A stretch of DNA of 47,650 bases from positions 1 through 47,650 of the forward strand of contig PNOC01000025.1 in assembly GCA_013824615.1 (NCBI GenBank). Reading direction: 5' to 3'. The position numbers were made by a program, and so were the translations under genes. Shown here piece by piece: positions 29,995 to 47,378 of this stretch. The stretch is from Thermodesulfovibrio sp. Its GTDB lineage: Bacteria; Nitrospirota; Thermodesulfovibrionia; Thermodesulfovibrionales; UBA6898. Position 1 is the stretch's first letter. Each line of letters begins with the position of its first letter. Under the pieces are notes generated by a model. That model saw nothing but the letters and a program-made list of their open reading frames with translations. It was not told the origin of the DNA and searched no databases.

Positions 29995-30045
29995 TGAATA
30001 TTACGTTGTATACATCATTTTATTTAATACATAGAGGTAACAGGC

Positions 30046-32001
30046 ATGCTGAACACGAAAAATATATCCATTCGATGGAAAACCGCTGTACCGATAATCA
30101 TTGCGGTGTCTTTTGGGGTGTTGCTGACCATTATTGTAACCGGTTTTAAGACCAGGAGCATCGTACTTGACGAAATCCGGCATTCCTCTCTGGAGAGGAT
30201 GCGGGATACGGTGCTGAACTCTCTGACGACCATGATGCTGGCAGGCGATTATACAAAGGCAAAGGGTGAATTTCTTGAGCAGATGAAGAAAACCTCGGAT
30301 GTCAGGGTGATAAGGGCTGAAAACGTGGATAAAGATTTTGGAGCACCCCGTCACGACGACCATCAGCATCCTGTGGATGCGATCGAAAAAGAGGTCATCG
30401 AAAAGGGCGTGGAAAAAATTATTCTTGAGGGCGATTTTATTCGCGGTGTCTTCCCGTATATCGCCAAAAAGGATTTCATGGGCAAAGACTGTCTTTCCTG
30501 TCATAAGGTCAAAGAAGGAGATGTTCTGGGGGCTATCAGCATTAAAGTTTCGATGAAAGAATCCTTCGGGAGAATCAAGGGGTTGCAGTATCTTTATGTT
30601 CTGCTGGGCATGCTCGGCATCGTGGCCGTGACTCTGCTGGTCCTGAGCGTGGTCAGGGTTACCCATATGCCTCTTATAAACCTCATTGAAGACCTCAAGG
30701 ATGTGACCCACAAACATACTGAACTTGTTTTATCCTATGCGGGCGAGGATGAGGTTGCAAGAGTCGCCCAGAATGTGTCAAGGACCATACAGTATTTCAA
30801 TGATATGATAAACCGGATTATGATCAATACCAGCAAAATATTACCGGTGGTCGATATCCTGAAGACCATGGTTGACAAGACTGCCTCCGGGGCAAAGAAG
30901 CAGTCTGCCCAGGCAACAGAGATAGCCACGGCATCTGAAGAGATGAGCAATACCATTACCGATATCGCGAAAAATGCCTCTTCGGTTTCCGAGACCACAG
31001 CACAGGCCCGGGACGCTGCTTCCCAGGGAAAGACCATGGCATCCGGTGCCGTGGCTACGGTCAACCGTGTCCATGCCTCAACGGTCGAGTTGACCGATGT
31101 TGTCGACCGCCTTAACAGCCGCGTCGGAGAAATTGGGGACATTGTAACGGTCATAAAAGATATTGCCGACCAGACAAACCTGCTGGCGCTGAATGCTGCG
31201 ATTGAAGCAGCGCGGGCGGGGGAACAGGGCCGGGGTTTTGCCGTGGTCGCCGACGAGGTGAGAAAACTTGCAGAAAGGACGATAAAGGCGACCTCCGAGA
31301 TTTCGCTGAAAATCGGAGCAGTGCAGGCAGAGTCAGAGCAGACGATGAAGTCCATGGGAGAGGCTTCGGCAGAGGTTACCCAGGCCACGAGAGATATCAG
31401 CAATGTGGGCGGTTCGCTCGACAGCATTGTGGTCGCCGTTCAAAGGGTTCAGGACCAGATAACCCAGATCGCTGCCTCTGTGGATCAGCAATCGGCCACC
31501 TCTGAAGAAGTATCGCGGAATATCAGCGCCACCTCCGAGATAGCCCGGGAGATCGAAAGCCTGTCGAGCACGGTACAGGGAGAAGTCGCAAAGCTTGCGA
31601 CGTTTGCCGATGAGATGAGGACGACCACCGCAGGCATTAAGACCAAAGGCGGCGCCATCGTGATGCTGGAACTGGCCAAAAATGATCATCATGGTTTTGT
31701 CAGCAAAATTGAAGCCTGCCTGAAGGGAGAAATCAGCCTGGACCCGGCACAACTGCCTGATCACCACGGCTGCAGGTTCGGTAAGTGGTACTATAAAGAG
31801 GGGATTGATATATGCGGCAGCGCTGCAGGGTTCAGGCAGGTGGAGCCGCCGCATGAGAAGATTCATCAACTGGCGAAGGAGGCTGTAGCAGCCTACAATG
31901 CAGGCAGAAAGGACAAGGCAGCAGAGCTCCTGGCTCAGATGCACCCTATCTCACGGCAGATCGTGAACCTGCTGGATGAGACGAAGAAAGACTGCTCGTA
32001 G
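30046..32001 (+). CDS. Methyl-accepting chemotaxis protein with periplasmic haem-c motif and C-terminal CZB domain
   Basis: A 651-residue chemoreceptor. One membrane helix spans about 13-33; the sensor region runs about 34-182 and contains a single haem c motif CLSCH (149-153) and a His-rich patch HDDHQH; the second helix is about 183-204. A HAMP-like linker and the coiled-coil signalling domain follow, with hairpin tip [20 protein letters not shown] and methylation-type helices. The C-terminus (about 545-640) is a CZB zinc-binding domain: [14 protein letters not shown] and PHEKIH supply the 3-His/1-Cys pattern. It probably senses redox or gas ligands outside and zinc or oxidants (HOCl-like) inside. 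GAGGT precedes the ATG. The gene seems monocistronic. Confidence 0.92.
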
Positions 32002-41721: not shown

Positions 41722-42000
41722 ATGAAGATATCGATTGATCAGATAGCGCAGCTCGCACGTCTTTCGTTGACCGGGGAAGAGAAGGATACTTTCGGCCGGC
41801 AGCTCGACAGCATCCTGAGTTATATGGATACCCTCAACGGGCTCGATACGGCGAATGTGGAGCCGACCTCCCATGTTATTTCGATCAGCAACGTGGTGAG
41901 AGATGACATCCCCGCCGGGTCGCTGCCGCGGGAAGAGGCTCTCATGAACGCTCCGGACGGTACTGTTGAGTTCTATCGCGTGCCGAAGATAATCGAATGA
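41722..42000 (+). CDS. gatC: Aspartyl/glutamyl-tRNA amidotransferase subunit C
   Basis: A 92-residue protein with the family pattern IDQIAQLARLSLTGEE, LDSILSYMDTLNGLDT and a C-terminal YRVPKIIE. It is a stabilising subunit of GatCAB. AAGGA lies 7 bases before the ATG. gatA and gatB are not in the window; the next gene is panD, an unusual neighbour. Confidence 0.93.
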   Translation: MKISIDQIAQLARLSLTGEEKDTFGRQLDSILSYMDTLNGLDTANVEPTSHVISISNVVRDDIPAGSLPREEALMNAPDGTVEFYRVPKIIE

Positions 42001-42046
42001 AGATTGACGGCTTTGTAAAACCTGTCTTACACGTTCTGGGGGTATC

Positions 42047-42394
42047 ATGCTGAGGTGCATGCTGAGGACCAAGCTCCATATGGCAACGGTGACTGAATCG
42101 AACCTTGCCTATGAAGGAAGTATTACGATCGATGCGGCGCTTCTCAAGGAGGCGGGTATCCTGCCGTATGAGCAGGTGATGATCAGCAATATGAACAACG
42201 GTGAGCGCTTTGAAACCTATGTGATACCGGGCAGGAATAATTCTGGCGAGATCTGCCTGAATGGTCCTACGGCGCGCAAAGGGGCTGTCGGCGACAAGGT
42301 GATCATATTCTGCTACAGTTATTTGGAAGACAGCAAGGCAAAGGCCCTCAAGCCGAAAATCATCAAACTCAACGAACAGAATAAGATAAAATAG
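42047..42394 (+). CDS. panD: Aspartate 1-decarboxylase
   Basis: A 115-residue pyruvoyl enzyme making beta-alanine for pantothenate/CoA. The self-cleavage site is YEGSITID (Gly-Ser at about 24-25); the N-terminal MLRTKLHMATVTE pattern and the GDKVIIFCYSYLED segment are characteristic. GGGGG is upstream of the ATG. Confidence 0.96.
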   Translation: MLRCMLRTKLHMATVTESNLAYEGSITIDAALLKEAGILPYEQVMISNMNNGERFETYVIPGRNNSGEICLNGPTARKGAVGDKVIIFCYSYLEDSKAKALKPKIIKLNEQNKIK

Positions 42395-42468
42395 TTCTTC
42401 AAAGACCCCTGAAGTCTTTCAATCCGGCCTGTAGTTTATTCCATCCCTAAGAAAAGGTTCATTTCGGG

Positions 42469-42474
42469 TAAAAT
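42469..42474 (+). promoter_or_regulatory. Possible -10 box (TAAAAT) directly before marC
   Basis: TAAAAT ends 8 bases before ATG 42482, and there is no ribosome-binding site in between (ATATCCA). No good -35 hexamer is seen. Confidence 0.35.
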
Positions 42475-42481
42475 ATATCCA

Positions 42482-43117
42482 ATGATCGAATGGACCGTAT
42501 ACATAAAAATATTTACAACTCTTCTGGCCATCGTAAACCCTCTCGGGGTGGTTCCCATTTTTGTCAGTATGACCGACGGCATGGCCGGTGGCGAAAGACG
42601 GCATATAGCCAGGACGACAAGTATCGCGGTTGCAGTTGTACTGGTTTTCTCAGCCCTGCTCGGCAAACCCCTGCTCGATTTTTTCGGGGTGAGCATTGCG
42701 TCCTTTAAGGTTGGAGGCGGCATTCTGTTGCTGCTGATGGCCATCGCCATGATGCAGGCCAAGCACAAACAGAGCAATCAGACTCCTGAAGAGGCCGAGG
42801 AGGCGGTGGAGAAAGAAAGTATTGCCGTGGTCCCGATCGCCATGCCGCTCCTGGCAGGGCCCGGGGCCATTTCAACCGTTATAATATACGCGGATCAATC
42901 GCTGCAGCCTCTGCATATCGGACTGATCATAACCAGCTGCCTGCTGATCTCTCTGCTCACCTGGGCGGCACTGAATGTTGCAAACCCTCTCAGTCGGATG
43001 CTCAGCAAGACCGGTATCAATATCGCGACCCGGCTTATGGGACTGCTGCTGGCAGCTATTGCTGTGGAGTTTATAAGCGGAGGTCTGCTCCAGCTCCTCC
43101 CGGGGCTTGCGAAATAG
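42482..43117 (+). CDS. MarC family integral membrane protein
   Basis: A 211-residue protein with six hydrophobic segments and the MarC/UPF0056 pattern NPLGVVPIFVSMT near 19-31 and PLLAGPGAISTVI near 122-134. The family was once thought to give multiple-antibiotic resistance, but that was not upheld; function unknown. It is the last gene of the plus-strand housekeeping block. Confidence 0.9.
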   Translation: MIEWTVYIKIFTTLLAIVNPLGVVPIFVSMTDGMAGGERRHIARTTSIAVAVVLVFSALLGKPLLDFFGVSIASFKVGGGILLLLMAIAMMQAKHKQSNQTPEEAEEAVEKESIAVVPIAMPLLAGPGAISTVIIYADQSLQPLHIGLIITSCLLISLLTWAALNVANPLSRMLSKTGINIATRLMGLLLAAIAVEFISGGLLQLLPGLAK

Positions 43118-43517
43118 ATTGTCTGCTGCGTTTTTCGGACGATCCCCGTTGCGCCTCGGCAGGGGGCGCATCGGCTTAGCCCCGAAACACAAGCCAAGAT
43201 GAATCTGCAATTAACGCGAGTTTAACTTCTGGATATCTGAGAAGTACCGTTCCTAATCTGCAAAATAGAGTGGACTCGGCCGGCGAGAATTACTCCCTAT
43301 ACTTGAGATTTATCTGGCATTAGCTGAAAGTTCATAGCACCGACTAATCCTTACGGTGGGCATTGTTGCGATAGTGAAGATTTACGATAGAAGTCCGCGA
43401 TTACGAAATGGCTGAGCCGCGAGATTTTCGCGGCTGACTCGACCCGCGGGTTGGAATCACTGTGTCTGGTTTCTCGCTGTGCTACCCGACCTACAAAAGT
43501 TTCACTGACCGACATAT
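43118..43517. other. 400-bp gap between marC and nadR
   Basis: No coding region can be supported. A perfect 8-bp hairpin (AGCCGCGA, loop GATTT, TCGCGGCT, 43415-43435) lies about 80 bases after the nadR stop on the minus strand and could end that transcript, though it lacks a T tail. A GC-rich patch at 43151-43176 (GTTGCGCCTC near AGGGGGCGC) loosely resembles an integron recombination-site end, but is not convincing. Confidence 0.4.
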
Positions 43518-45700: not shown

Positions 45701-46042
45701 GTATCCGATAACACCGGAAATCCGATGTTAGTCCCCTAGAGTTAATACGGAACCCTCCAGACAATTTATCGGAATCTGCGAGTTAGTCATTATAAGATAG
45801 AATTTCCCCATAACTGATTACCGATGATAATTTACATTATTTTCACCTTTTTGAAAAGTGTGGTAGGAGGAAGCAGTTGTTGTCTGGCCATCCTTCTCTG
45901 CAAAATGGAAACTTTCTCTACCCGTACTTAATCTTCACATATTTGCCAACTCCACCCTACTCTTCACTGTGGACATTCCGACACAGTAATAATTATTGTT
46001 TCTAATCCTCACGTTCAAGGGGCTTTTCAATCTGTGGTGTAT
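45701..46042. other. 342-bp non-coding gap between the membrane-protein gene and the insertion sequence
   Basis: No gene is supported. Just before the membrane-protein start, a hairpin at 45709-45730 (TAACACCGG, loop AAAT, CCGATGTTA; one mismatch on this strand, a wobble on the other) may affect its translation. The rest is AT-rich with no clear promoter. Confidence 0.4.
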
Positions 46043-46060
46043 ATGTCGTAATTTCCAGGT
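46043..46060 (+). repeat. Left 18-bp direct repeat flanking the insertion sequence
   Basis: ATGTCGTAATTTCCAGGT here is identical to 47379-47396, in the same orientation, at the other side of the element. It is most likely a target-site duplication. Confidence 0.8.
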
Positions 46061-47378
46061 TGTTGTCAACAAATAGAGTTGTCCGGTTTGGTAGCACATA
46101 AACTGTCCGGCCTGTAAGCGCTGAGTATTAAGCTGCTTTCTTGGTGGCGGCGGCCTCCTTTCCCTTAGAATTAAAGGAGACGAGCTTTCTGTGACCATGG
46201 AATATGGCCAAGGTGCCGTTTGGATAGCGATGGACCCGCACCTTCACTTTGACATAGTGATAGCGATATTGATCCTTAGGGATCTGAAGGACCAGGCCAT
46301 CGAATCTAACGCAGTTGTCATTGCCGACCGTTCTTTCATACTGTTCGCAGAGGATATCTTCAATAGGTGCTCCGGCCCAAGGGACAAACATGCTGACTGA
46401 CTCCGCCGGGGGAACTGCAAACTCATTTTTATAGGCAGGGAGGTAGACGTCGCGGATATACCTATTGGCTGGAGCCATCTCCGTGATGCCGGCCAGGGCA
46501 AGTTCCTTGACCAGTCTATCTTGATGGGTACGAAAGACTCTTTCAGAGCGCCCACGCGCTTCAGGAGAGTAAGCAGGAATCATCTCAATGCCCAACTGTC
46601 TCATAGCACGCCCAAACTGGGTTAGATTCCCCTTGTCCACCTTTCCACCGGCCTCAGGGGTATTCCAGTAGTGGCTGCCGCGATCTGTGTACAATGATGC
46701 AAATAATCCATGCCGGTCGATAACCTCCTGGACCCCCTGGAAACTGCTGCGAGTCCCTTCCTCATCGACAAAGAACATCGAGTAATGCTCACTGGTGGCA
46801 TCATCCATAGTTACAATCAGATCCCATAGCTTTCCTGGCACCCACTCATGTGTGGAACCGTCCTGATGTAGCATCATGCCAATATACGGAGCCCGTGGCC
46901 GTTTTTTCCTATGAGCTCCCTTTGTAGTGGCCTTAGGCACAAGCCCCTTGCCCTGAAGGGTCTTCTTTACCCATGTGTAGCTCCTGAGGCCTCCGTCACG
47001 CCGGTACCAACTGTAAAAGTGTTTAGCATTAAAGCCCTGATACCGGTGATTGTATAAATCCGCCAGGGCTATGACCTCATCTACCGGTGCACTTCGGTGT
47101 GATACCTGCCCTAAGCGCTGGTCCACCAGTCCCTCCATTCCCTGTTCTTCATATCTAACCAGATAACGCCGATAGGTCCGATCGCATACTCCAAGTAGCC
47201 TTGCAGCCTCCTGCTGAGTCAATCGTCCCTTCTGGCATCCCTCATATGCTTCCTCAAATCTCATCTTCCGTACCTCCTGTAGTAGTACTGTCCTCTTCAT
47301 GAATGGCGCCTCCGTGCCATTCAATCTTACCCGGACAGTTTATGTGCTACAGATACGGACAGTTTATGTGTTCTCTAC
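46061..47378 (-). mobile_element. IS1202/ISNCY-like insertion sequence, about 1.32 kb
   Basis: The element holds one transposase gene on the minus strand. Its inner inverted repeats are a perfect 20-bp pair (46091-46110 and 47331-47350, GTAGCACATAAACTGTCCGG and its complement). A second, degenerate copy of the same unit lies outside each one (46068-46086 and 47356-47372), so each end probably has two transposase-binding sites. An 18-bp perfect direct repeat flanks it. Long duplications of 15-29 bp are known for parts of the IS1202 family, which fits. Ends and transposase are intact, suggesting a recent and possibly active insertion. Confidence 0.82.
46128..47300 (-). CDS. Transposase, IS1202/ISNCY type (DDE)
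   Basis: About 390 residues. An N-terminal helix-turn-helix (GRLTQQEAARLLGVCDRTYR, about 26-45) is followed by the RNase-H-like catalytic core with the likely triad Asp in MLHQDGSTHEW, Asp in LYTDRGSHYW and Glu in AYSPEARGRSERV. A basic C-terminus (ATKKAA) ends it. No frameshift or stop is seen. ATG 47300 has GGAGG 8 bases upstream; ATG 47264 also has GGAGG 8 bases upstream, so either could be the start. Confidence 0.88.
   Translation of the reverse strand: MKRTVLLQEVRKMRFEEAYEGCQKGRLTQQEAARLLGVCDRTYRRYLVRYEEQGMEGLVDQRLGQVSHRSAPVDEVIALADLYNHRYQGFNAKHFYSWYRRDGGLRSYTWVKKTLQGKGLVPKATTKGAHRKKRPRAPYIGMMLHQDGSTHEWVPGKLWDLIVTMDDATSEHYSMFFVDEEGTRSSFQGVQEVIDRHGLFASLYTDRGSHYWNTPEAGGKVDKGNLTQFGRAMRQLGIEMIPAYSPEARGRSERVFRTHQDRLVKELALAGITEMAPANRYIRDVYLPAYKNEFAVPPAESVSMFVPWAGAPIEDILCEQYERTVGNDNCVRFDGLVLQIPKDQYRYHYVKVKVRVHRYPNGTLAIFHGHRKLVSFNSKGKEAAATKKAA

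Follow-up and report, generated by a model that had tools for sequence, protein, structure and literature searches.

The chemoreceptors GSU0935 and GSU0582 of Geobacter sulfurreducens (structures 3b42 and 3b47) have a haem-c sensor between two transmembrane (TM) segments, followed by an MCP signalling domain. The haem of GSU0935 is attached through Cys140 and Cys143 and is liganded by His144 and, in one state, also by Met60; in both proteins oxidation releases the Met, and NO or CO can take its place (PMC8396549). Across haem-c sensors of this layout, ligation switches with redox state and NO is bound (PMC8396549; PMC12889525). CZB domains sense HOCl or zinc in TlpD (PMC6715182), DgcZ (PMC8262984) and McpA (PMC13370339). 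Membrane-bound CZB receptors have already been catalogued, and Cache and globin domains are among the sensor domains found beside CZB (PMC8262984). Haem-c Cache sensors and CZB have each been proposed as redox sensors, and are discussed separately in the literature that we found. CZB is not mentioned in the main text of the sCache_heme study (PMC12889525) or, for GSU0935 and GSU0582, in the review (PMC8396549). Haem-c Cache chemoreceptors and membrane-bound CZB receptors are thus both known, and a pairing of the two was not found named in the literature searched, from which most subscription papers are missing; this is weak evidence that the pairing is new.

Such a pairing is predicted for the product of a gene of Thermodesulfovibrio sp., located in a window of 47,650 nucleotides (the whole stretch analysed, contig PNOC01000025.1). 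The gene occupies positions 30046..32001 of the forward strand, exactly the coordinates given in an earlier note on this DNA, and its features listed below lie on the same strand. It encodes 651 residues from an ATG at 30046; a probable ribosome-binding site, AGAGGT, precedes it at 30033..30038. The product is a membrane chemoreceptor with the order TM1, periplasmic sensor, TM2, HAMP-like linker, MCP and CZB. TM1 (about residues 13-35, 30082..30150) and TM2 (about residues 182-203, 30589..30654) are hydrophobic stretches in the translation, the former conserved among homologues, and they flank a Cache-like sensor (about residues 36-181, 30151..30588). The linker (about residues 204-255, 30655..30810) is assigned by position, as Pfam finds HAMP here in the paralogues L002 and L003; the Pfam search gave no scored HAMP match in the 651-residue receptor itself. 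The MCP signalling domain (residues 316-499, 30991..31542) scores above the Pfam cut-off for PF00015 (E 8.4e-47) and includes the conserved hairpin-tip motif. The gene stands apart from the many other MCP genes of its genome, with an unrelated gene on one side and def-fmt on the other. This def/fmt neighbourhood was not found at the relatives' loci examined, where no conserved neighbour gene hints at a signal.

The haem-c attachment motif CLSCH lies at residues 149-153 (30490..30504), where the earlier note had placed it, and His153 is its predicted proximal ligand. In an alignment of 46 homologues from relatives, the sole invariant positions are M64, P137, C149, C152 and H153. A wider alignment of sensor homologues retains M64, P137 and the whole CxxCH in 63 of 63 sequences, with F76, E114, V117, Y138, G158 and G162 nearly invariant; conservation of this extent indicates that the motif is not due to chance. 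One further homologue outside that count (L200, G122:C77:58941-59396) reads CLGSCH (CxxxCH) at the motif while retaining the invariant Met, and may have a variant haem-c attachment site. A His-rich patch, HDDHQH (residues 103-108, 30352..30369), does exist as the earlier note observed (H103, H106 and H108), but it occurs only here and, partly, in a few relatives. We rejected it as a source of the haem axial ligand because it is not conserved among the 46 homologues.

The candidate for the distal ligand is instead Met64 (30235..30237). In an AlphaFold2 model of residues 34-184, made as a monomer and without template (pLDDT 84.3), this residue falls close to the end of helix alpha1 (residues 35-66). 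On a 46-sequence profile, M64 aligns with position 26 of the 3b42 chain; if C106 of that chain is taken as Cys140, this position is Met60 of GSU0935. The 3b42 stretch scores 13.8 bits against this profile. Of 1000 shuffled versions with the CxxCH end left in place, 2 score at least as high, and one sensor homologue gives a weak phmmer alignment to 3b42 (E 0.55) over most of its length. The register is therefore supported but not overwhelming as an alignment. The spacing from the Met to the first Cys is 83 in most homologues, 85 in the receptor and 80 in GSU0935. As predicted by analogy with GSU0935, ligation by His153 on the proximal side and Met64 on the distal side is likely, and it is very probable that the outer domain carries a covalent haem c.

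The fold of the sensor points in the same direction. Foldseek against the PDB returns two GSU0935 chains (3b42) as its two top matches (E 2.2e-5, probability 1.00) and Tll0287 (5b82) at rank 5. TM-scores to 3b42, however, are only 0.39-0.47. The domain-swapped dimer form of 3b42 would lower such scores, but the match is one of fold and not a superposition of the pocket. VIA-align gives a Z of 9.4 to Tll0287 and higher values to Cache domains that bind no haem, WalK among them, a pattern that suggests a general Cache fold; the model also matches CitA and DcuS. The earlier note had proposed to model residues 34-182 and see whether the CxxCH and an axial His make up a haem pocket. The nearest fold is indeed GSU0935, but the axial candidate that emerges is Met64, not a His of the patch. 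Its view of the domain as a haem-c sensor akin to the Geobacter chemoreceptors is supported by the conservation of CxxCH and by this match, although sequence identity to GSU0935 and GSU0582 is low (18-19%). The receptor shares with these two the order TM, sensor, TM and MCP and a CxxCH situated late in the periplasmic domain. A profile search of the PDB with the 46 sensors gave no significant match, nor did searches with single sequences; the relation emerged from the fold search and from the profile alignment to GSU0935.

The expectation that Pfam would recognize the sensor as DUF3365 did not hold, since PF11845 (DUF3365/Tll0287-like) scores 12.7-19.5 bits, below the cut-off of 24.1. A profile of 21 canonical DUF3365 domains does align with the sensor profile (probability 95.7, E 9e-9) over 58 columns of the C-terminal half. 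The sCache_heme domains of this family share with the receptor a Cache fold and a CxxCH before the last strand (PMC12889525). However, canonical DUF3365 domains have about 20 extra residues between the CxxCH and the last strand that are missing here, and their candidate distal ligand is Cys rather than Met. We therefore file the sensor as a probable relative of the GSU0935 type and not as a PF11845 member, with kinship to DUF3365 supported over the 58 columns only.

The C-terminal CZB domain extends over residues 535-651 (31648..31998), with a Pfam core at 548-614. PF13682 scores 56.7 bits (E 3.1e-15; cut-off 29.4) and is detected in all 24 members tested, each of which has the four predicted zinc ligands: His548 (31687..31689), Cys576 (31771..31773), also a predicted redox-reactive position, and the HxxxH pair His603 and His607 (31852..31866). 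These align with the CZB sequence of DgcZ, at positions that we take to be its zinc ligands His22, Cys52, His79 and His83. The domain is thus complete, as was first noticed from the translation. Its model (pLDDT 95.7) matches the DgcZ CZB structure 3t9o with a Foldseek probability of 1.00 and a TM-score of 0.65, at an E of 0.16 that is typical of many helical bundles. Cys52 of DgcZ is a zinc ligand (PMC8262984). The CZB fold and its three His and one Cys are shared with Helicobacter pylori TlpD, Salmonella McpA and DgcZ. TlpD is cytoplasmic (PMC6715182), McpA has a similar architecture (PMC13370339) and DgcZ is a diguanylate cyclase, whereas the receptor described here is membrane-bound. The paralogue L002, in the same genome, has an MCP-CZB half 54-56% identical to that of the receptor, but combines it through HAMP with an ordinary Cache sensor (sCache_2/dCache_2) that has no CxxCH.

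We consider it fairly probable that the protein joins a periplasmic redox or NO haem sensor and a cytoplasmic zinc or oxidant sensor to one output. Outside the membrane, the Cache-fold domain would hold one haem c via Cys149 and Cys152, with His153 proximal and Met64 distal, the latter near the end of an alpha1 helix that is continuous with TM1. If the haem is oxidised or binds NO (or CO), Met64 would be freed, and alpha1 and the TM helices might then shift; the HAMP-like linker could carry this movement on to the CheA/CheW array. On the cytoplasmic side, the CZB domain would hold zinc via H548, C576, H603 and H607, and loss of the zinc upon depletion or exposure to HOCl or other oxidants may change the bundle beside the same signalling helices. 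One receptor could in this way steer the cell by redox or NO state outside and by zinc or oxidant state inside. Haem binding, ligation, Met switching and zinc binding are properties that we infer from characterised relatives; that both modules are signalling inputs, and that these are integrated, would be a step of inference beyond this. Redox or NO is a reasonably probable outer input, whereas for CZB as a real second input the case is evenly balanced.

An alternative to the second input is that stimuli truly enter through the haem domain alone, with the C-terminal CZB region there to stabilise the receptor or to place it at the pole. Truncation of H. pylori TlpD by its last 45 residues abolishes both polar localisation and function (PMC13001251), and among relatives of the receptor CZB has been lost several times while the haem sensor persists. 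Yet a placement tag would hardly need four zinc ligands kept in 24 of 24 sequences, HOCl or zinc sensing is known for CZB domains in TlpD, DgcZ and McpA (PMC6715182, PMC8262984, PMC13370339), and three relatives without the haem domain retain CZB. We regard this explanation as unlikely. Considerably less credible is the idea that the CxxCH arises by chance or is a structural Cys pair, bound in a disulfide or to zinc, within an ordinary Cache domain. The sub-threshold PF11845 score would fit such a pair, as would the haem-free Cache domains that make up most of the close PDB folds by Z-score, but the complete motif and an invariant Met in 63 of 63 sequences, a haem-c MCP as the top Foldseek match and cytochrome c maturation genes in the genome all argue against it.

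The nature of the outer signal is a separate matter. The haem-c domain could be a sensor of NO rather than of redox potential, signalling through a five- or six-coordinate nitrosyl form with the Met off. The signalling sCache_heme protein of P. azotoformans binds NO tightly and does not bind O2 (PMC12889525), and the host genome contains a homologue of NrfA-type nitrite reductase. Data on GSU0582 and GSU0935, however, favour redox-driven release of the Met, with distinct potential ranges (PMC8396549), and no cd1 nitrite reductase was found in the host genome. Sensing of NO in place of redox potential is therefore a tentative proposal, and the two inputs are compatible, not exclusive.

The remainder of the host genome (3.6 Mb, estimated complete) suits the proposed receptor. 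The earlier note had named a lack of cytochrome c maturation genes as a finding that would refute its reading; genes for CcsA-type cytochrome assembly proteins and ResB are present. Flagellin, a dozen CheW-domain matches and CheW/CheA matches were also found, so that the organism could both attach haem c and perform chemotaxis. Four proteins in this genome have canonical DUF3365 domains. Contig C6 of the genome (G000, 41760-43127 and 45737-46237) encodes an NrfA-type cytochrome and, less than 3 kb away, a histidine kinase whose haem domain is a canonical DUF3365; it is conceivable that the two form a pair responsive to nitrite or NO. Another gene of this genome (L021, G000:C23:15002-15526, minus strand) encodes a CheW-CZB fusion, which suggests that CZB may have more than one way into the array.

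The combination of haem sensor and CZB is not peculiar to this protein and recurs across the order, an observation as direct as those of the receptor's sequence, domains, conservation and fold similarity. Nitrospirota supplied 75 distinct sensors of the same type, of which 25 are in proteins that also carry CZB and 46 in complete ORFs without it, the other 4 being cut. The pair occurs in 14 of the 101 genomes searched first (the host and its relatives). Those 14 represent six families, and the order as a whole has the pair in no fewer than six. Two of the proteins (L047 and L048) have CZB domains with all four zinc ligands, though outside the strict HxxC pattern. The sensor is present at an E of 1e-20 or better in 41 of 395 Nitrospirota genomes. 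When a closer subset of the sensor alignment was used to scan a collection, every matching record that names a group named Nitrospirota, including a Thermodesulfovibrionales MAG and the magnetotactic Candidatus Magnetobacterium and Magnetominusculus.

A sensor tree, rooted at its midpoint and with L048 as a long branch, requires about five changes in the presence of CZB. Within a clade of 50 rows, CZB is found in the early branches and is absent from nested groups, one of which comprises 20 receptors, including those of Magnetobacterium and Magnetominusculus. The tree reads most simply as CZB being ancestral to this main clade, with one early gain and several losses. Three proteins of one further family (L052, L053 and L054) can be aligned over their full length apart from a clean deletion that removes almost the entire periplasmic haem domain, and keep an MCP-CZB portion of about 42-44% identity. 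Relatives that lack CZB or the haem domain indicate that the modules are real and separable and that haem-only, zinc-only and double versions exist in nature; with many relatives lacking CZB and three lacking the haem domain, neither is essential to the chassis. It is possible, though we would put it tentatively, that the receptor compares oxidant state across the inner membrane, with a His/Met haem c that reads redox or NO outside and a zinc-thiolate CZB that reads zinc or oxidants inside, and that Nitrospirota keep an old comparator that some lineages have pared to either module. The double receptor and its natural single-module relatives provide a ready set for studying how an array balances redox signals from outside against those from inside, and redox-guided motility matters in Nitrospirota, for example in the magnetotactic members.

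Sensors of the same type also precede outputs other than MCP in seven homologues (L079, L080, L081, L082, L083, L084 and L051), the first of which ends in GGDEF. These seven, whose output is not MCP/CZB, were excluded from a second tree because they form long branches. A search of plasmids yielded a sole relative, a distant one from Aeromonas caviae (L170:2459-3313), in which a TM segment, a CxxCH sensor of this type with the Met conserved and HAMP are followed by no output domain; its 4.9-Mb record is labelled a plasmid but is probably a chromosome. Adjoining one of the haem receptors without CZB is another chemoreceptor gene (L102:952-2829), whose product has a CZB-like domain in the N-terminal half, which appears to be periplasmic.
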